Assembly (NCBI GenBank): GCA_903915655.1
Contig: CAIWTU010000136.1
Coordinates: forward strand, 1 to 43,193
From: an uncultured Geobacter sp.
GTDB taxonomy: Bacteria > Desulfobacterota > Desulfuromonadia > Geobacterales > Geobacteraceae
Reading direction: 5' to 3'
DNA length: 43,193 nucleotides
Below are positions 28,917 to 42,179 of the stretch, one piece after another. The stretch's first letter is position 1. Each line of letters begins with the position of its first letter. Both the position numbers and the translations under genes were made by a program. The notes below the pieces were generated by a model, which was given only the letters and a program-made list of their open reading frames with translations, had not been told where the DNA came from and did no database searches.

Positions 28917-28993
28917 AGGGCGAACAGAAGGTTCGCCCCTACAAATCAAAACCAAACATCACAAACCGTAGGGGCGAATCTCGTATTCGCCCT
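28917..28993. repeat. Nested palindromic repeat element, 77 bp
   Basis: The outer arms are AGGGCGAA and TTCGCCCT (28917-28924 and 28986-28993). The inner arms are TTCGCCCCTAC and GTAGGGGCGAA (28932-28942 and 28968-28978). Each half is also its own hairpin. The sequence resembles short dispersed intergenic repeats seen in many bacterial genomes. Confidence 0.6.
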
Positions 28994-29171: not shown

Positions 29172-31502
29172 ATGGAAAGGCGAGATTTTTTGAAACTGTG
29201 CACCATTGCGGCCATAGTCCCGTCCGTAATTAATCTGGAGAAAGCATTGCCACAAGAGCTCCCTGTCGTAGGCGCCCCATCCATTACCGATATAAAACAG
29301 GGTGAGGATCTGTTCGCCTACATCACCCGGGTGAAGGGGAACTTTGATCAAACGCTCTACCGGCAGGTGATCGGCGCAGCGAATGCATTCAAGGAGGGGG
29401 ACCTGACCATCGGCGTTGGGGCCAAGGATGAAACAACGCGGCAGAATGCGCGTATCCTCATCTCAAACACAAGGATCAAGGACCTCTACGAGCATCCCCT
29501 GCTGGTTGACGACCTGCAGAAGCTTATCTGGAAAACCACTGACCATCCACAGTACGAGAAAATCAAAGGGTGGAGCATGGGAGAGTTGAAAAACTTCCTG
29601 CTGACCAGATCAGAGACGGAGATCAAGGGTATCATGGCCGGTCTGACCAGCGATACGATAGGATGTCTCCCCAAGCTGATGAGTAATAAAGAACTGATCA
29701 ACTTCAACCAGAAAATATTCAATGTCATGCCCGGCACCAAAATGGGGGCAAAGGGCTATCTTAGCGCCCGCATCCAGCCCAATTCCCCTACAGACGACCC
29801 TGATGACATCGTCTGGCAGACCTTTGACGCCTTTTCCTATGCAACCGGCGATATCGTCATCGGGACAAATCCGGTAGACAGCCAGGTCGAGAACGTGGCC
29901 AAGGTGGAGAAGGCGCTCATGGACGTAGTCGAAACCTTCAAGCTCCAAGATATCGTCCCCTGGTGCGTCCTTTCCCATATCGATCTACAGGCGGAGGTTG
30001 AGAGGAAGTACCCTGGCACGGTCGAAACCATGTTCCAGAGCTTGGCAGGAACCGATGACTGCAACAAGATCTTTGATGTCACGGTCGATAAGATAGTGAA
30101 TTATGCGAAAGGCAAGAAGGGAAAGCGGTACGGGCTCTACTTCGAGACGGGGCAGGGCTCCGAATTCACCAACGGCGCGGCCAACGGCGTGGACATGATG
30201 GTGCTGGAATCCAGAAAGTACGGCTTTAGCAGGGCGGTGCAGACGGAACTGGCCAAGGTCCAACCGAAGGGTCCGTGGCTCCATATCAACGATGTCGCCG
30301 GTTTCATCGGCCCCGAGGTCTTCAGGACCAAGGAACAGCTGGTGCGGTGCTGTCTGGAAGATATCGCAATGGGCAAGCTGCACGGCCTGACCATCGGTCT
30401 CGATATCTGTTCCACCCTGCACATGACCGTCAGCCTCGAAGACCTTGATTGGTGCCAGGACCAGATCATGCCGGCCGAACCGGCCTATCTTATTGCCCTT
30501 CCGACCAAGAACGACCCGATGCTGAGCTACCTGACAACTTCGTTCCAGGACCATGTCCGCCTGAGAGAAAAGTTCAAACTGAAAGTCAATGATGCCATGT
30601 GGGCTTTCTACAAACGGATCGGGATCGTTGACGAGAACAACAGGTACACAGCACATTACGGCGACCCGCTCTGGGTATACTACCAGTTTCGCCTCGCCAA
30701 GGGCGACAGGCGTTCCGAGGAAATAATCTATGACGAGGGGAGGAAGAAGATCAAGGAAGTTGAAGGGAGAGGCGTTGATCTTGCCATCGGTCATGGAAAG
30801 AATATCTGGGATCTGAACCCGAAACTGGAGAAGAGTGTTCTGGCCCTCTACAATGATGCCAAGGTATCGCTCAAGTCCGAACTAACCCAGGCATTTATCG
30901 CGACCATTCCCAGTGTGGTGCAGGTAAATACCCTCTCCAGGAATCGGGAGGACTATATTCTCCATCCGGCCACTGGTGAGAAGCTGAGCCGGAATTCCAT
31001 CGCCGCGCTGGAAAAGCTTAGAGGGTCATGGTCGGGCAAGGAGACGAATGGCTATATCGTGATCTCCGACGGCCTGAACGCCAGGGCCATCATGGATGAA
31101 GGGCATCTCATCCCCTACGTGGAAGAGATCCGGAGGCTCTTGACCGAAAATGGCGCGGTCATGAGCGACAAGAACATCGTGGTCATCAACGGCAGGGTGC
31201 GGGCCGGGTACGAGATCGGCAACATACTTTTTGAAAAATCCGATAATCCAAACAGGCTATATGGGATTGTTCACATTATCGGGGAACGCCCCGGAACCAT
31301 GCACCATTCATATTCGGCATATATCTCCGTTGCCAAGGCGAGCGTCTGGGCCTCCAGGAAAATGGATCACGACTTGACCAAACTGGTGTGCAACATAGCG
31401 GATACAGCCCTGGCGCCGAAACAAGCGGCCCAAGAAACGCTCGGCATCGTAAGGGAAATCAAGGCAAAGCTGGCTCCCACCAACCGCCCACCATCCCACT
31501 GA
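29172..31502 (+). CDS. eutBC: Fused ethanolamine ammonia-lyase EutB-EutC with Tat-like signal
   Basis: This single 776-residue chain contains both subunits of the adenosylcobalamin-dependent lyase that splits ethanolamine into acetaldehyde and ammonia. The EutB part (about 45-490) keeps residues aligned with the E. coli active site: Arg 200 and Gln 202 in SARIQPNSPTDD, Asn 233 in GTNP, Glu 325 in YFETGQGS and Asp 411 in GLDICST. The EutC part (about 575-770) has ISDGLNARAI, NGRVRAGYEIG and the cobalamin-side GERPG. Normally these are separate proteins of about 450 and 295 residues. The N-terminus, MERRDFLKLCTIAAIVPSV, matches the twin-arginine export motif. The start at 29172 is behind AAAAGGGTG. 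No eutA, eutD, eutE or microcompartment shell gene is near. Substrate and export are inferred. Confidence 0.85.
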   Translation: MERRDFLKLCTIAAIVPSVINLEKALPQELPVVGAPSITDIKQGEDLFAYITRVKGNFDQTLYRQVIGAANAFKEGDLTIGVGAKDETTRQNARILISNTRIKDLYEHPLLVDDLQKLIWKTTDHPQYEKIKGWSMGELKNFLLTRSETEIKGIMAGLTSDTIGCLPKLMSNKELINFNQKIFNVMPGTKMGAKGYLSARIQPNSPTDDPDDIVWQTFDAFSYATGDIVIGTNPVDSQVENVAKVEKALMDVVETFKLQDIVPWCVLSHIDLQAEVERKYPGTVETMFQSLAGTDDCNKIFDVTVDKIVNYAKGKKGKRYGLYFETGQGSEFTNGAANGVDMMVLESRKYGFSRAVQTELAKVQPKGPWLHINDVAGFIGPEVFRTKEQLVRCCLEDIAMGKLHGLTIGLDICSTLHMTVSLEDLDWCQDQIMPAEPAYLIALPTKNDPMLSYLTTSFQDHVRLREKFKLKVNDAMWAFYKRIGIVDENNRYTAHYGDPLWVYYQFRLAKGDRRSEEIIYDEGRKKIKEVEGRGVDLAIGHGKNIWDLNPKLEKSVLALYNDAKVSLKSELTQAFIATIPSVVQVNTLSRNREDYILHPATGEKLSRNSIAALEKLRGSWSGKETNGYIVISDGLNARAIMDEGHLIPYVEEIRRLLTENGAVMSDKNIVVINGRVRAGYEIGNILFEKSDNPNRLYGIVHIIGERPGTMHHSYSAYISVAKASVWASRKMDHDLTKLVCNIADTALAPKQAAQETLGIVREIKAKLAPTNRPPSH

Positions 31503-34296: not shown

Positions 34297-36522
34297 ATGA
34301 AAGAAGCGAAGAGTCAGCAAAATATCCCGAAACTGTCTGGAAATGCCAGGACGGTCCTTGAAAAAAGATACCTTAGAAGGGACAAAGAAGGCAAAATACT
34401 GGAAGCGCCCGAGGATATGTTTCGCCGGGTTGCCAAAGCAATTGCTGCAGCCGACAGGAATTTTGACGCCAGCGCCGACATAGAATCTGATGCAGAGAAA
34501 TTCTACCAAATGATGATAAATTTCGAGTTCCTCCCCAACTCCCCTACCCTTATGAACGCAGGACGAGAATTGGGACAGCTCTCGGCATGCTTTGTTCTCC
34601 CGGTCGGAGACTCCATGGACGAGATCTTCGACGCCGTCAAATATACCGCTCTTATCCACAAATCCGGCGGTGGCACAGGCTTTTCCTTTTCCCGGCTCCG
34701 CCCGGCCAATGACGTTGTCATGTCGACAACCGGCATCTCCAGCGGTCCGATCTCGTTCATGCGTGTCTTCGACATCGCCACTGAAACCATAAAGCAGGGT
34801 GGGACAAGACGCGGGGCAAATATGGGTATCCTCCGCGTAGATCATCCCGACATCATGGACTTTATCATGTGCAAGGCAGACCAGAAACAGCTCAACAACT
34901 TCAATATTTCGGTCGGCCTGACTGAAGCCTTCATGAAGGCGGTTGAAAAGGATGAAGATTACAACATAGTGAACCCGAGAAACGGAGAGGTTGCCGGCAC
35001 GCTGAACGCCAGCAAGGTATTCCACCGTATAGTAAAACAGGCCTGGATTAACGGGGAACCTGGTATAATTTTCCTGGACCGGCTGAACAACGATAACCCG
35101 ACTCCCCATGTAGGCGAGATCGAGTCGACCAACCCCTGCGGCGAGCAACCGCTCCTCCCGTACGAATCGTGCAATCTCGGCTCCATCAACCTCGGAAAGA
35201 TGGTCGAAAAAGGGGAGATCCGCTGGAAACGCCTTAAAGAGGTTGTCAAGTCGGCGGTACTCTTCCTTGACAACGTGATTGAAGTAAACAGTTATCCGCT
35301 ACCCCAGATCGACGAAATAACCAAGACCAACCGAAAGATTGGACTTGGTGTCATGGGGTGGGCCGACATGCTCATTTTCCTCGGCATTCCCTACAACGCT
35401 CCGGAAGCGATCGCCCTCGGCGAAAAGGTCATGTCGTTTATCAACGACGAAGGACATGCCGCCTCGAGAGAACTGGCCGCTAAGAGAGGGGCTTTCCCGA
35501 ACTTCATCGGCTCTGTCTTCGACAAAAAAGGGACCGGCATCATAAGGAATGCCACGGTAACAACGATTGCCCCCACCGGGACCATTTCCATCATCGCCAA
35601 TGCATCCTCAGGCGTTGAGCCGTTGTTTGCCGTCTCCTTTGTGCGCCAGGTGATGGACAATAATATTCTCGTCGATGTAAACCCTCATTTCGAGAGGATC
35701 GCAAAGGAGCAGGGGTTCTATTCCGTGGAGTTGATGCAGCGAATAGCCGAACATGGAACGGTACAGGACATAGCGGAGGTACCGGAGGAAATACGCAAGA
35801 TATTTGTTACCGCTCATGACATAACACCTGAGGTCCATATAGAGATGCAGGCAGCCTTTCAAAAATATACCGACAACGCAGTGAGCAAGACGGTCAATTT
35901 CCCGAATGATGCCAGCATTGAAGACGTGGAGAAGGTCTTCCGCCTGGCCTACAAGATGGACTGTAAAGGTGTAACCATCTACCGGGATGGATCCCGTGAC
36001 ATGCAGGTCCTTTCCACCGGCAAGAAAGAGGAGGTAGCGCCACCCCCGATAGACGAGAAGAAACTGATCAAGCGGGAGAGGCCAAAGGCCTTGAAAGGTT
36101 GGACCTACCAGATGCAGACCGGCTGCGGTCCCCTTTATGTAACAGTAAACGAGGACAAATCCGGGCTTTTCGAGCTTTTCACCACCATGGGCAAGGCTGG
36201 CGGTTGCGCTGCTTCCCAGTGCGAAGCTATCGGCCGCATGGTTTCGCTGGCATGGCGCAGCGGCGTCCAGGCGCGCCAGGTCGTCAAGCAGCTCTTGGGG
36301 ATCTCCTGCCATGCCCAGTCCGGCTTCGGAGACAACAAGGTTCTCTCCTGCGCAGACGCTGTTGCCAAGGCGATACAGACCCATCTTAAACTTTCCGGCG
36401 TCGATGCGGATTTTGATCAGAAATCTTTTGATAGAGGGGCCTGCCCCGAGTGCGGCGGCGTTGTCGAACACGAAGGGGGATGCTCGGTCTGCAGGGTATG
36501 CGGGTACAGTGAGTGTCAGTAG
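34297..36522 (+). CDS. nrdJ: Vitamin B12-dependent ribonucleotide reductase (class II)
   Basis: This enzyme (741 aa) reduces ribonucleotides to deoxyribonucleotides using adenosylcobalamin and works with or without oxygen. The active-site loop NPCGEQ is at about 279-284 (radical Cys 281, Glu 283), and the partner cysteine is Cys 98 in SACFVLPVGDSM. GGGTGFSFSRLRP and APTGTISIIANASSG are typical. A TSCPD domain follows (TGCGPLYVTV to ASQCEAIGRM), then a cysteine-rich tail from residue 716 (CPECGG...CSVCRVCG) that likely forms a zinc ribbon and redox relay. The start has GAGGAG upstream. A strong terminator follows. Confidence 0.96.
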   Translation: MKEAKSQQNIPKLSGNARTVLEKRYLRRDKEGKILEAPEDMFRRVAKAIAAADRNFDASADIESDAEKFYQMMINFEFLPNSPTLMNAGRELGQLSACFVLPVGDSMDEIFDAVKYTALIHKSGGGTGFSFSRLRPANDVVMSTTGISSGPISFMRVFDIATETIKQGGTRRGANMGILRVDHPDIMDFIMCKADQKQLNNFNISVGLTEAFMKAVEKDEDYNIVNPRNGEVAGTLNASKVFHRIVKQAWINGEPGIIFLDRLNNDNPTPHVGEIESTNPCGEQPLLPYESCNLGSINLGKMVEKGEIRWKRLKEVVKSAVLFLDNVIEVNSYPLPQIDEITKTNRKIGLGVMGWADMLIFLGIPYNAPEAIALGEKVMSFINDEGHAASRELAAKRGAFPNFIGSVFDKKGTGIIRNATVTTIAPTGTISIIANASSGVEPLFAVSFVRQVMDNNILVDVNPHFERIAKEQGFYSVELMQRIAEHGTVQDIAEVPEEIRKIFVTAHDITPEVHIEMQAAFQKYTDNAVSKTVNFPNDASIEDVEKVFRLAYKMDCKGVTIYRDGSRDMQVLSTGKKEEVAPPPIDEKKLIKRERPKALKGWTYQMQTGCGPLYVTVNEDKSGLFELFTTMGKAGGCAASQCEAIGRMVSLAWRSGVQARQVVKQLLGISCHAQSGFGDNKVLSCADAVAKAIQTHLKLSGVDADFDQKSFDRGACPECGGVVEHEGGCSVCRVCGYSECQ

Positions 36523-36613: not shown

Positions 36614-36752
36614 AGTTTTTGAAGTATTTTTGTTCTAAGCCCAAATCTTTATTTTCCAATTGACTTTGCACACTTTTTGGTATTATTATAATGTTAAGTT
36701 ATAGTCAGCTGTTTTTGATAGGTTTTCCACTAAATAACTTTACAGGTTGATT
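36614..36752. other. AT-rich junction before the recombinase module
   Basis: This 139-bp AT-rich stretch contains no gene. It should include the left boundary of the recombinase-bearing element and its promoter (for example TTGACT at about 36660 and TATAAT at about 36687). I could not find terminal repeats shared with the right side of the window. Confidence 0.4.
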
Positions 36753-37976
36753 ATGGATTCTAGCCTTTACGACATACGCAGGGATTACAGAATACCCTCT
36801 TTCATGGTAGGAGAGCGACCGCGCTTTATCTTTGAAAATACCATGACGCTGGTACCGTCCGTTGCGGTTTCGTTGTACGAACAATACCTGAGCTATAAGA
36901 AAGGTTCGTACAATAGCGTTAATGACGATTTGGATAAAATAGCATATCTCTACACCTGGGCCAATCGCGAGAATATTGATATCGAAGAATTACTTCTCAA
37001 TGGATATGCACCACAACCGATACAGGTTCGGGCATTTGCGTATTGGTTATCTCAAATCGACAACATTTCACTTTCCACATACAATCGTGTTCTTGACGTA
37101 AGTGCGGCAATATTTGTCTGGTTCATAATGCATTACGGAGAATTCGAGGGCCGCGGAAATAAGCATCAATTAGACCGGGAAAAAGTGGCTTCATCTACGC
37201 AAGCCCTTTTCCGCAATCATAAAAAACCAGACCGCAAGAAACGTATTGCCGAGGACATGTCGGAAGAAGATATTGCAACTATTGAAAACTATCTTAAACC
37301 AGAAAACAGAGCTGCCGGCGTAGATGAAGCAACCGCTAAGAGAGACTATTTAATGTGGCGGCTGGCAATCGAATTTGGATTCCGAGCTTCGGAAATCTTG
37401 GCACTCCGGCTCTGCGATTGTCCACACGGGAAGCAACAGTTCATAAAAATAGTTCGGATTGAAGAACGCGGGAAGGACTACCATGACCCTCGCGGGCCGA
37501 GAATGCCACGACCAAAGACGTTAAGCAGGGATTTGGGGTTTCTTATTGAAAACTCACCTATTCCCGAATTGATAAGTGATTATGTTAGTGAGTATCGTAG
37601 TATAGTTGTTCTTCGTAATGGCAAAATCACGAAGCAACCGGTACTCAAACACGAATTCCTCGCTATTTCTCATATGCGGAAATCGGGGGCTCCATTATCT
37701 GAATCCGGAATGCAACGGGTAGCACAGCGGATTTCCGAAAAGACCGGGGTTACTTTTCATTGGCACTTGGCGAGACACGCTTTTTTTAACCGGGCCTACT
37801 TGTCCATCGTGAACCACCCTGAGTTAAAAGACAAACTCCTCGACCTCGTGTACTGGGGCGGATGGTCTGATGAGAAAAGTCTGCAACTGTATGTAAACCG
37901 GGCGCGAAGGCATAGAGCAACAACAGCACTGGTTTTCTGGCAAACTGGAACTAACACATGGGACGCACTGAAATGA
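36753..37976 (+). CDS. Tyrosine recombinase 1 of a tandem trio (TnpA-like)
   Basis: This site-specific recombinase (407 aa) has a SAM-like N-terminal core-binding domain (about 30-140) and a C-terminal catalytic domain. The catalytic set is complete: Arg 211 (GFRASEILAL), Lys 255 (RPKTLS), His 338 and Arg 341 (HWHLARH), Trp 371 (GGWSDEKS) and the nucleophile Tyr 380 (LQLYVNR). The start is the ATG at 36753; a TTG two codons earlier is less likely. It overlaps the next recombinase gene, as in Tn554-type operons. Codons are AT-richer than in nrdJ next door, consistent with transfer. Confidence 0.85.
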   Translation: MDSSLYDIRRDYRIPSFMVGERPRFIFENTMTLVPSVAVSLYEQYLSYKKGSYNSVNDDLDKIAYLYTWANRENIDIEELLLNGYAPQPIQVRAFAYWLSQIDNISLSTYNRVLDVSAAIFVWFIMHYGEFEGRGNKHQLDREKVASSTQALFRNHKKPDRKKRIAEDMSEEDIATIENYLKPENRAAGVDEATAKRDYLMWRLAIEFGFRASEILALRLCDCPHGKQQFIKIVRIEERGKDYHDPRGPRMPRPKTLSRDLGFLIENSPIPELISDYVSEYRSIVVLRNGKITKQPVLKHEFLAISHMRKSGAPLSESGMQRVAQRISEKTGVTFHWHLARHAFFNRAYLSIVNHPELKDKLLDLVYWGGWSDEKSLQLYVNRARRHRATTALVFWQTGTNTWDALK

Positions 37977-39529
37977 CAGAAAAAATGACCTATAATCCTG
38001 AGACCGATGTATGGGAGAACGGGGCTGGAAGAACTTACATCAAAAATGAGTTTCTGCCTGAGAGCCCCTATTGGATTGATATTTCAACAGAATCCTGGAA
38101 TATATCCACTGGTGGCGTGTATCTTATCATTGACTGGTGGCCGCTTAGGAATAAACCGCAATTTTTGACGGCATTGCAAACTGTTGCAAAAATGAAGTTA
38201 AGAAACCAATCACCCTCTTATGCCGGTAAAATCAGGCAATTAGTAATTAATATTGTGCCGTTTCTTGATAAAGCCTGGACAGACTTCGGAGATATTTCTA
38301 CCGATGATTTCACGTACATATGGGATGAATTAAATAACTCCAATCGAATCACTCTACGTGAGTTTTATCAACAGATGGTTGCGCTTGAAATTGGCGGAGC
38401 GCGAAGCGATGTTGCCTACGAACTGAAGCATTGGAAAGCGAGGAACGATACCCTCGTGTTGAGAGATGTCCTCCAATGGCATGAAACGAAAGGAGCACTG
38501 ACATCGACAGAAGAAAAGATTTTGCGGGAAGTGCTTCGCACCACTGGCATTGGATATGAGACTGATAAAGAAAATGCGACCAGAATATTTGGGTGGCTTC
38601 TTCTGGATACACTTAAGCGAGCATCTCAGGTTTTGGGTATTCGGAAGGACGGGTTGAAAGAAGTCGTAAACAACGATGGCACAAGCGAATGGTTCGTAAA
38701 AATCAAACCCGTAAAATTCCAGACAGGTCTACCAGAACGCTGGTGGCGGGTTTCCGAAGAGTTGGCACAAGAAATAATTGAATACAGTAAGCGGGAACAG
38801 ATTGCTGTATTACAGGAAAAATACGACCGATTGATTGTCTGGGACGTCCCCTGTCTTTTTGAACATGGTGTAATTGGGCCTGGGGACGCCAAAGGAACTT
38901 TGACCTACTATATTTATAAACGTGGGGCTATCAGCCATAGAACTGGGAAGCCGTTGCATGTCACTCCCACAAGAATCCGGCACACAGGGGCAACGAGACT
39001 GGCTTTTCAAGGTGTTTCGAGAGACCTGATTTCAGAAATTTTGGAGCATGACAACAAATATTCAGCGCAGGCGTACATTGACGCGGTCGGTTCCGAAATT
39101 GTTCCAGCAATCGAAAAAGCTGACCGCCTCATGGGAAATCTGTTCTTTGAGCTCAATAAGGGCTATTTCCAAGGGAGGGTTGTCAAAGATTTGGAAGACA
39201 AACCACCCGTGGTTGTGCCGGAGTTCAATGCTACCCCCATTATCGTAGGGACATGCGGCAGGGATACTCTGAAGGATGGAGTATGCCCAAAACACCCATT
39301 TCTGACGTGCTACGATGGCTGTAACTGCTTCTTTGCGTGGGACAACCCTGACCCCCATGGCAAGGCGCTAAAATACTTTGAGAAGGAAATTCAGCGGTGG
39401 GAAAAATCAATTGAAGCTGCTGAGCAGAAGTCCGTATCCCATCTGATTGCTGACCGTACATTGCAGAGTTACCAGCGGGCAGCAGGAGCCGTCAAAGAGA
39501 TACTGGGCCAGATTACCAAAGGCGAATAG
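37973..39529 (+). CDS. Tyrosine recombinase 2 of the trio
   Basis: This is the second recombinase (518 aa). The catalytic pieces are Arg 216 (LKRASQVLGI), Arg 336 in TPTRIRHTGATR, His 359 (ILEHDNKYS) and Tyr 368 (AQAYIDA). The first box II position, usually His, is Thr 333. A cysteine-rich tail (GTCGRD...CPKHPFLTCYDGCNC) may bind zinc and is followed by a helical segment. I chose the ATG at 37973, which overlaps the previous stop as ATGA; an ATG at 37958 is an alternative. It ends TAG with the next gene's ATG directly adjacent, so translation is probably coupled along all three. Confidence 0.85.
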   Translation: MTEKMTYNPETDVWENGAGRTYIKNEFLPESPYWIDISTESWNISTGGVYLIIDWWPLRNKPQFLTALQTVAKMKLRNQSPSYAGKIRQLVINIVPFLDKAWTDFGDISTDDFTYIWDELNNSNRITLREFYQQMVALEIGGARSDVAYELKHWKARNDTLVLRDVLQWHETKGALTSTEEKILREVLRTTGIGYETDKENATRIFGWLLLDTLKRASQVLGIRKDGLKEVVNNDGTSEWFVKIKPVKFQTGLPERWWRVSEELAQEIIEYSKREQIAVLQEKYDRLIVWDVPCLFEHGVIGPGDAKGTLTYYIYKRGAISHRTGKPLHVTPTRIRHTGATRLAFQGVSRDLISEILEHDNKYSAQAYIDAVGSEIVPAIEKADRLMGNLFFELNKGYFQGRVVKDLEDKPPVVVPEFNATPIIVGTCGRDTLKDGVCPKHPFLTCYDGCNCFFAWDNPDPHGKALKYFEKEIQRWEKSIEAAEQKSVSHLIADRTLQSYQRAAGAVKEILGQITKGE

Positions 39530-41671
39530 ATGCTTAAACCCAAGAAAGACATATTCAGCGATATCAGAGAATACCCGGCAAGCGAAGCTTTATTGGAGCT
39601 GATGCCGAACTTCTCTGTGCAATTACCTGATGGTGTCAATTTTGAAGATGATACCTGGAACATCCTTGACTGGAAAACAAGAAAGGGCAATTCGAAGGTA
39701 TTTAATATTGATTTCGGAGATTTCAGTAATAATGAATTGAAATTCCTGGCAAAAGTTTTTTTACTTCATAAACGGCTGGAAAAGAATTTTGGTACCCAGG
39801 CAGCATACAACTATGTCAGCACAATTAAACATCTGGATAAAATAATATGGCGTAAGAGTGTTAAAAATATAATAAATGCTGATTTTTACCAGGCTGAAAT
39901 GCTGATTAAGAATACAAGCGGTTCTGCTCACCGGTTATGTAAGTTTCTGTCAGGCTTTGGCGAGTGGCTGAATGCCAGAATCGGTTTGCCTGTCAGTTAC
40001 GCTTCATCCATACCAGAGGTTCACAAGCATGGCCGGAAGGGTACAGAGGAAGGTCGCCAGAGCAAATTAATAAACACCCTCGTTATCCGAGACATGGTGG
40101 AAATGAATGCACGTACCGACCTATCCGATAAAGACCGATTCTACCTGTCCGTCTTTGTACTTTTTGTGGCGACCGGATTTCGCATTAATGAGCTTGCGAC
40201 ATTACCCAAAAACTGTCTTGAAAACCGGTCGGGGGAATACAACATTCAGTATTATGCTGAAAAGAATCGCAATCTTCAGGTCCGCTTCATTCCAAGGGCT
40301 ATGTTACCGGCTGTTCAAGCTGCACTTGGCCATATTATCCGGATAACTGAACCTGGGCGGGAAGCGGTACTGAATCTCAAAATGAATCCAGGGCTGGATT
40401 GGAGTGGCATTTTAGACGACAAGCTAGCGACTGAATATTTCGTCAGGAAATTTGCCCATGAGTGGACTTCGCAGCCTCGTAATCTGATGATTAATCCTGA
40501 TGGTGTATGGCTTGAGAAGGAAAAGAGAATCGTTGACATCATTGCGATTATGGAAGAAACCGGCTCTAAATCGGCGGCAGCACGACAGCTTGGAGTAACA
40601 AGGGCAACTGTTGATGGGCTTTTCGTCGCACAGAATAACGCACGTATGGGGCTACTCCCTTGCACTATTGCAAGCAGGGGGAAGGATACCCGAACCGATT
40701 GGGATACGGACGCCCGTGTAATATCATTACTCAAATTCATGAACTATTGCGGTATTCGTCAAAATAATAATGAAAAGAAAGATGTGTTTCGACCTATTAT
40801 CGAAGAGGCACAACAGCTTCAGCTGAGAGGTAAAATATACCCTGCCCCGAAAAAAGAGCGGGATTTAGAAGAAAAATATGTTCGGACAATTCGCCCGGTT
40901 GTGGAGGATTATGATGGTAAAGCCCTACTTGAACCAGAAAATGCCCTGTTCATTATCCCAAGGTACTCATTTTCAGAGGCACGAGCAACAAAGGACGAAG
41001 ATTATCGTCTGATATCGGATAAGGCCATTAGCCGCTGGTTTACGGGGGAATTGCGTTCTGTCGGAACATTAAATCACGAGGATAATTGTTTCAACCGGCT
41101 TGGTATCATAGACCCCGGCACAGAGAAACCAGCAAAGTTCTCTTCGCATGATGTCCGCCATTGGCTCGACACAACATATGCTGAGGGCCACATGGATGAA
41201 GAGACAATAGCTCTGATATTTAGCCGGAAAATGGGAGCAAACCACACATACGACCAGATAAGTAAAATGAAGCGGCTGGAAAACATCCGACAGGCTATCC
41301 GCGATGGAAAATCCGTAGGGCATGTTTCGCAGAACTATAACAACCTGGCAAAATATAGCCGGGAAGATGCTGAACAGTATCTTTTGGCCGGAACACGCAT
41401 GGTCAACATTATGCCTCACGGAGCTTGTACGTTGAGTTGGGGAATGGAAGCATGCCCAAACCACTTATCCTGCTTTGCAGGCGGCGGTAAAGGCAAGGGC
41501 TGTTGTGAGCACCTCCAGATTGACATGGCAGATACGGAGCAAATCGAAGAGGTTCAGCGCATAAAGCGGGAAGTATCAGTAACGCTGGAATACATGATGG
41601 AAGAATCTCCGCAATATATCCACTTCAGAAACATCAAGTGGAATATTGAAAGTCTCCTGGGTTTCAAATAA
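39530..41671 (+). CDS. Tyrosine recombinase 3 of the trio, with internal HTH (TnpB-like)
   Basis: This large recombinase (713 aa) has box I Arg 218 in TGFRINELATL, box II His 540 and Arg 543 in SSHDVRHWLDT, and a candidate nucleophile Tyr 574 in GANHTYDQI. Between the boxes, at about 335-365, is a helix-turn-helix-like insert (SAAARQLGVTRATVDGLF). The tail is cysteine-rich (HGACTLSWGMEACPNHLSC...GCCEHL), as in the second recombinase. It begins directly after the previous stop codon. It is somewhat longer than Tn554 TnpB (about 630 residues as I recall), to which it seems closest. Confidence 0.82.
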   Translation: MLKPKKDIFSDIREYPASEALLELMPNFSVQLPDGVNFEDDTWNILDWKTRKGNSKVFNIDFGDFSNNELKFLAKVFLLHKRLEKNFGTQAAYNYVSTIKHLDKIIWRKSVKNIINADFYQAEMLIKNTSGSAHRLCKFLSGFGEWLNARIGLPVSYASSIPEVHKHGRKGTEEGRQSKLINTLVIRDMVEMNARTDLSDKDRFYLSVFVLFVATGFRINELATLPKNCLENRSGEYNIQYYAEKNRNLQVRFIPRAMLPAVQAALGHIIRITEPGREAVLNLKMNPGLDWSGILDDKLATEYFVRKFAHEWTSQPRNLMINPDGVWLEKEKRIVDIIAIMEETGSKSAAARQLGVTRATVDGLFVAQNNARMGLLPCTIASRGKDTRTDWDTDARVISLLKFMNYCGIRQNNNEKKDVFRPIIEEAQQLQLRGKIYPAPKKERDLEEKYVRTIRPVVEDYDGKALLEPENALFIIPRYSFSEARATKDEDYRLISDKAISRWFTGELRSVGTLNHEDNCFNRLGIIDPGTEKPAKFSSHDVRHWLDTTYAEGHMDEETIALIFSRKMGANHTYDQISKMKRLENIRQAIRDGKSVGHVSQNYNNLAKYSREDAEQYLLAGTRMVNIMPHGACTLSWGMEACPNHLSCFAGGGKGKGCCEHLQIDMADTEQIEEVQRIKREVSVTLEYMMEESPQYIHFRNIKWNIESLLGFK

Positions 41672-41681
41672 AGGAGGATTT

Positions 41682-42179
41682 ATGGTCCAGTTACGCGGTG
41701 AAAAAGTTAAGGAACTCATTCGTGATGGGTTGAATAAACTGTCATTGGCTGCCGGTGTCGAAGGGAAAAGGTTAACCTACAACGCCAGCGAGCTATCTGC
41801 GCTAATCGGCGTATCCCGCCCTACCCTTTACAAATATTCCGAGTTCATTGACGAGGTGTTAAAAGACCTCTCTGCGGACAAAAAGAATGCTCAGGGGCTA
41901 GCTGTGATAGGTTTTATGCGGGAAAAGATGGAAAGGCTTGAAACAGAAAAGTCTCTGTTAAAAAAAGAAGTCGATGTGCTGCGGAAGCATCATGCGAAAC
42001 TGTACGAGACTCTATATTCTCAGTCAGCAAAACTTGCACCCCTTATTAAACCTATTGTTGCACAGGAAAACAAGGAAGCAGGCCGTTGCATTCTGTGTAA
42101 CCATGTGATTGATGCGGATGCGAAACCGGCCAGGTCAAACAAGGTGGTTTCGTTTCCAGTGAGAGCCAAAAAAGAGTGA
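41682..42179 (+). CDS. Small HTH/coiled-coil partner of the recombinases (TnpC/DUF6262-like)
   Basis: This 165-residue protein has a helix-turn-helix-like segment at about 32-50 (LTYNASELSALIGVSRPTLY), a probable coiled coil at about 75-115 rich in Lys, Glu and Leu, and a CxxC pair near the C-terminus (Cys 136 and 139, RCILCNHVI). It occupies the position of TnpC in Tn554, an accessory protein that influences efficiency or orientation of transposition. The ATG at 41682 is behind a perfect AAAGGAGG. It is the last gene of the recombinase operon, followed by a terminator. Confidence 0.75.
   Translation: MVQLRGEKVKELIRDGLNKLSLAAGVEGKRLTYNASELSALIGVSRPTLYKYSEFIDEVLKDLSADKKNAQGLAVIGFMREKMERLETEKSLLKKEVDVLRKHHAKLYETLYSQSAKLAPLIKPIVAQENKEAGRCILCNHVIDADAKPARSNKVVSFPVRAKKE

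Follow-up and report, generated by a model that had tools for sequence, protein, structure and literature searches.

The locus examined here raises the question of whether ethanolamine ammonia-lyase (EAL), a vitamin-B12-dependent enzyme usually known as a two-subunit enzyme inside the cell, can occur as a single fused chain that is carried out of the cytoplasm. The window analyzed is a 43,193-nucleotide stretch of DNA from an uncultured Geobacter sp. (contig CAIWTU010000136.1). An earlier note had described a gene in this window as a 776-residue fusion of EutB and EutC with a twin-arginine (Tat) leader and conserved active-site residues, and had considered Tat export of a folded B12 enzyme to be unusual. 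We found that the fusion, the Tat-like leader and the conserved active site stand, and that the protein belongs to a clade in which predicted export leaders are the rule. The features of the locus are as follows.

29172..31502 (+), gene for the fused EutB-EutC protein with its leader, 776 aa
29172..29270 (+), predicted Tat-type leader, residues 1-33 (MERRDFLKLCTIAAIVPSVINLEKALPQELPVV)
29175..29195 (+), twin-arginine motif ERRDFLK, residues 2-8
29358..30653 (+), EutB (large subunit) domain, residues 63-494
30654..30866 (+), linker between the two domains (the gap between the Pfam matches), residues 495-565
30867..31466 (+), EutC (small subunit) domain, residues 566-765, with SDGL, GRV and GERPG motifs

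The open reading frame is intact, with an ATG at 29172 and a stop codon ending at 31502. Pfam searches matched EutB (PF06751; 477 bits, E 6.6e-143) and EutC (PF05985; 94.5 bits, E 8.2e-27), both over their cut-offs. The NCBIfam EutB model scored 630.5 bits, over its cut-off of 554, while the EutC equivalog scored 67.6, below its cut-off of 230. An 84%-identical relative (loci L013/L002) uses the same ATG, preceded there by GGAGG. Between the window gene and L013, dN is 0.096 and dS is 0.75 (ratio about 0.13), so the chain is under purifying selection; over the first 35 codons the ratio is about 0.27, although this is based on few sites. The gene stands alone. Genes that by eye look like fabH, plsX, ksgA and tsaD lie upstream on the other strand, and a class V aminotransferase, also on the other strand, lies downstream. 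No cobalamin or ethanolamine gene was found beside it, and no riboswitch was found near it. An imperfect inverted repeat (26-base arms, 85% complementary, 25-base gap) lies upstream of the gene at 28917-28993. Elsewhere in the window, three tandem ORFs resembling tyrosine recombinases (36747-41671, +; Pfam Phage_integrase 30.4 bits, over the cut-off, for the first, and 24.9 and 22.6, below it, for the others) are followed by a small ORF at 41646-42179 without a Pfam match.

The leader, MERRDFLKLCTIAAIVPSVINLEKALPQELP, has the layout of a Tat signal, with twin arginines followed by a moderately hydrophobic stretch (ERRDFLKLCTIAAIVPSVINL; maximum 12-residue mean hydropathy 2.39) and then a polar region. 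Read alone, however, it would only be suggestive. The residue before RR is E rather than S or T, the TIGR01409 profile scored 13.8 bits against a cut-off of 16.7 (E 0.06), Pfam's TAT_signal was not reported for the window at E up to 1, and by eye there is no clear A-x-A cleavage site, although L013, which has KRRDFLK (as does L002), has VFA followed by E. These profiles are not sensitive for this family. Of 29 members of the alignment designated A1, of which 28 look Tat-type, TIGR01409 reported only 10 and TAT_signal only 8 at E up to 1. As a base rate, 55 of 1304 other ORFs of the same loci have RRx[FLIVM] near the start, and 30 of these are followed by a hydrophobic stretch.

Relatives were collected from 58 related genomes (10 with a match, one of which, G037, is an ordinary EutB), a pattern-based scan of GTDB species genomes (43 loci), plasmid records (149 with a match, of which 4 were retrieved), 247 phylum-level genomes (20 with EutB) and 277 class-level genomes (60 with EutB). 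The loci read are a part of what these searches matched. From them we compiled 88 distinct sequences of the window's clade, from Geobacterales, Syntrophotalea-like genomes, Syntrophaceae, rhizobia including S. meliloti pSymA, Bacteroidota, Ignavibacteriota and Verrucomicrobia. Of these, 48 have Tat-type leaders, 39 have Sec-type leaders and one (L038) is cut before the leader. The sorting rule gave 49 Tat, 38 Sec and 1 truncated, and L132 was moved to Sec by eye; L140, counted as Sec, starts at a contig edge inside a hydrophobic stretch, leaving 86 of 88 with a full-looking leader of either type. Many rhizobial leaders are textbook Tat signals, such as ISRRDLLVMAGTAAATLASYGHTARA in L052, while Sec-type rows are classical, such as MKRFLLIAALLCFGLFGFSTYSGA in L106. 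Two leaders (L014 and L048) end by eye in a lipobox-like LxGC and may belong to Tat lipoproteins, with L048 having RK for RR, and L126 has a Tat motif but no ATG, GTG or TTG in the frame read upstream of it. A start downstream of the leader is disfavored by the relatives. Shine-Dalgarno-like matches of 5 or more bases precede the best candidate start in 75 of 87 rows, against 6% of random positions, although taking the best of several candidate starts overstates this contrast; the window itself scores 4, and in L048 the best-scoring start lies inside the leader.

On a quick maximum-likelihood tree of 126 EutB domains, in which long branches were flagged, the 88 sequences form one clade (SH-aLRT 100). 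Its nearest relatives are seven leaderless fusions (L080, L127-L129 and L144-L146) that are about 36% identical to the window protein, with ordinary EutB and two further leaderless fusion groups lying beyond. Leaderless fusions L066, L067 and L141-L143 lie with or near ordinary EutB, so the fusion may have arisen more than once. Leader presence requires one change on the tree, and Tat against Sec requires two. Tat leaders occur in two places: the window-plus-rhizobia branch (38 rows plus the truncated L038) and a branch of ten that includes Saonia, a Melioribacteraceae genome and a Verrucomicrobia genome. The earlier note had proposed that homologues lacking the leader would count against it, and this comparison came out in its favor, as the window's 39-row branch is Tat-type except for the one row truncated before the leader. 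Exchange of one export tag for another that works by a different mechanism is hard to explain unless export matters.

Conservation of the active site was assessed in the 86 rows at least 45% identical to the window protein with at least 640 aligned residues, aligned with E. coli EutB and EutC. E. coli residues R160, Q162, N193, F258, E287, V326, F329 and D362 are identical in 86 of 86 rows; R200, Q202, N233, E325, F378 and D411 of the window protein match R160, Q162, N193, E287, F329 and D362. These are taken to include substrate and radical-site residues (for E287, PMC4413051). On the EutC side, SDGL and GRV are identical in 86 of 86 rows and GERPG in 84 of 86, the other two being gapped there. 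Position 392 is M in 52 rows, as in E. coli, and I in 34, the window among them, while position 295 is T in 86 of 86 rows but S in E. coli. An AlphaFold2 model built from 29 sequences has a mean pLDDT of 82.0, with residues 1-33 below 50. Foldseek ranked E. coli EAL first, with TM scores by target length of 0.87 for 3abo_A and 0.69 for 3abo_B.

The genomic context was then examined. TatC was found in 9 of 9 genomes, including the window's, and a CobA-type adenosyltransferase in 4 of 4, the window's again included, whereas a PduO-type adenosyltransferase was found in 0 of 4. A ribonucleotide reductase large chain at 34297-36522 (+) of the window is, by its TSCPD domain, probably of the adenosylcobalamin-dependent class, so the coenzyme should be available inside the cell. 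The window's genome has one EutB only. The BMC domain was found in 0 of 9 genomes, the window's included, and EutH in 0 of 10. The EutA model gave only matches of 45-47 residues in 8 of 9 genomes (46 residues in the window's), with similar matches in control genomes such as B. subtilis, and the ORF under the equivalent hit in G001, another of the genomes searched, looks like FtsA by eye. Of 7 other loci searched for riboswitches, one (L115) has a cobalamin riboswitch, lying downstream of eutBC before the next gene but one.

Interestingly, the two export routes differ in their gene neighborhoods. Ten proteins of the Sec-type locus L121 were used as queries against loci over 9 kb (25 of 32 Sec, L121 included; 42 of 47 Tat; 8 of 8 leaderless). 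At E up to 1e-5, the 25 Sec loci matched a solute-binding protein in 22, an outer-membrane protein in 19, an unknown membrane protein in 23, an ABC ATPase in 17, a BtuF-like protein in 17, a BtuC-like protein in 17, MoxR in 16 and DUF58 in 16. Of the 42 Tat loci, none matched any of these except the BtuD-like ATPase query (16, all distant), and of the 8 leaderless loci none did except the ATPase query (1); none of these ATPase matches reached 35% identity over 150 residues. An earlier clustering gave somewhat different counts (24 Sec loci: solute-binding protein 21, membrane protein 21, BtuF-like 14, BtuC-like 13). The ATPase and permease score best against corrinoid/BtuC models but below their cut-offs, so a corrinoid importer is likely, not proven. 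The unknown membrane protein (L121:11549-12331, +, and equivalents) looks multi-pass, has no Pfam match, is absent from the whole genomes of the window and G001, and is present in 8 of the 8 Sec-type genomes searched. The corrinoid-type transporter genes are followed (L121:15311-19998 and equivalents) by a MoxR ATPase, DUF58, a 531-aa protein (14 of 25 Sec loci) and a VWA protein (9), a possible maturation or reactivation module. This partition is what one would expect if Sec-exported enzyme must meet its cofactor outside and Tat-exported enzyme need not, but it rests on only two changes on the tree and is therefore suggestive.

Other neighbors were noted. Of 46 loci within L013-L059 other than Sec, 21 carry an alcohol dehydrogenase of the AdhP cluster, 15 a phosphoketolase and 15 a large glycosyl transferase. 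Tat-type EutBC (L056 and L058 among others) occurs on the large plasmids (pSymA type in ml56) of many Sinorhizobium meliloti strains, next to glycosyl transferase, glucoamylase-family, phosphoketolase and adhP genes. L013 and L046 sit beside RND-efflux-type, DUF3300, DUF2950 and AI-2E-permease-type genes, with DUF3300-like and DUF2950-like genes immediately upstream of EutBC in these two different genomes (L013:7072-9442 and L046:7696-9917).

A functional hint is provided by genome G408 (one contig of 3,665,893 bases), which has two fused copies 70.8% identical to each other, in a gene order like that described for Pelobacter carbinolicus eutBC1 and eutBC2, whose identity is given as 70% (PMC3543383). 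We infer that G408 is that genome. These are its only EutB matches, and both have Sec-type leaders. Strains of the species are reported to grow on ethanolamine (PMC3543383). If so, an organism that lives on ethanolamine has only exported forms of the enzyme.

Taken together, it is hypothesized that the gene encodes a single-chain, adenosylcobalamin-dependent EAL that is carried across the inner membrane and works in the periplasm without a microcompartment, EutA or EutH. We place the probability of this reading at roughly 0.65, as localization, cofactor loading, activity, substrate and role are inferred and no experiment on localization, cofactor state or activity was found. In the window's lineage, the Tat leader would export an already folded enzyme, so adenosylcobalamin is most simply loaded in the cytoplasm first. 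Outside, the enzyme would cleave ethanolamine, from the medium or from lipid head groups, to acetaldehyde and ammonia, keeping the aldehyde out of the cytoplasm, and the products would then enter by diffusion or transport. Relatives with a Sec leader would have to take up the cofactor after export, and most of their loci carry a BtuF/BtuC-like transporter. The earlier note had supposed that the cofactor would be loaded before export or obtained in the periplasm, and the 39 Sec-type relatives, which it could not have known of, make this question sharper.

A more far-reaching possibility, which we hold only tentatively, is that a widespread lineage of adenosylcobalamin radical enzymes works outside the cytoplasm, with Tat forms leaving with the cofactor in place and Sec forms being assembled with adenosylcobalamin in the periplasm. 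The latter would be helped by a dedicated module consisting of a BtuFCD-like transporter, solute-binding protein, outer-membrane protein, unknown membrane protein and, in many loci, a MoxR-DUF58-VWA set that might replace the EutA reactivase. It would be a compartment-free way to handle acetaldehyde. Adenosylcobalamin radical enzymes otherwise appear to be cytoplasmic, and an exported one, spread over several phyla and present on symbiosis plasmids of rhizobia, would mean that bacteria place or assemble coenzyme B12 in the periplasm.

Three other explanations were considered. The one that survives best, although we regard it as unlikely, is that the protein is exported but is not an EAL in practice, acting instead on another small amino alcohol or serving as a periplasmic corrinoid-binding or sensing protein. 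The BtuF/BtuC-like transporter encoded next to it in most Sec-type loci (17 of 25) would also fit corrinoid capture, the window gene has no ethanolamine genes beside it, and position 392 varies. However, the E. coli substrate and radical-site residues are unchanged in 86 of 86 rows, which a mere binding protein would not need, and G408 (P. carbinolicus by inference) has no other EutB. Less likely still is that the N-terminal stretch is not an export signal, or does not act as one, and that the enzyme is an ordinary cytoplasmic lyase, perhaps tethered to the inner membrane. The sub-threshold Tat score, the lack of a clear cleavage site, the few A1 members reported by TIGR01409, the 4-base Shine-Dalgarno-like match at the window's start and the best-scoring start of L048 favor this view. 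It is countered by the leaders of 86 of 88 clade members, while the seven nearest leaderless fusions and the ordinary EutB proteins read start at the enzyme domain, and by the swap of two mechanistically different signals within one clade. Targeting of the N-terminal helix to a bacterial microcompartment, in which ordinary EAL may be packed and to which short N-terminal helices may direct cargo, is very improbable, as no BMC domain was found in the 9 genomes searched while the E. coli control was found, and SRRxFL and classical n-h-c signal peptides do not resemble amphipathic targeting helices.

With respect to known systems, the fusion itself is already in print, contrary to the earlier note's view that EAL is known as separate subunits, whereas no paper that by title or abstract reports an exported EAL was found among the open-licence papers searched; the eutBC of a rhizobial study (PMC10228743) denotes ectoine-degradation genes and not this family. 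The closest system is EutBC1/EutBC2 (Pcar_0491, Pcar_0467) of Pelobacter (Syntrophotalea) carbinolicus, likewise a single-chain EutB-EutC fusion and of the same clade as the window protein if G408 is this genome. That report notes no eutA, nearby periplasmic binding and membrane proteins, and a corrinoid-type transporter (PMC3543383), and the unknown membrane protein of the Sec loci seems to be the equivalent of Pcar_0490/Pcar_0466. The P. carbinolicus fusion differs in having a Sec-type instead of a Tat-type leader, no leader on EutBC being mentioned in the parts of the paper consulted, and in sitting in a large cobalamin gene cluster, whereas the window gene stands alone. Canonical EutB/EutC of E. 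coli (PDB 3abo) shares both domains, the fold, as predicted here, and the active-site residues, but is encoded by two separate genes without a leader and is used together with Eut microcompartment proteins, whose BMC domain was not found here. The leaderless EutB-EutC fusions nearest to the clade have the same domain order in one chain, but have no leader and, in the 6 of these loci plus 2 other leaderless loci examined, none of the Sec-type neighbors except one distant ABC-ATPase match. Reductive dehalogenases (PceA/RdhA) provide a precedent for a corrinoid enzyme moved to the outer face of the cytoplasmic membrane by Tat (PMC10624902), although they are unrelated enzymes, apparently with iron-sulphur clusters and electron transfer chemistry rather than adenosylcobalamin radical chemistry.
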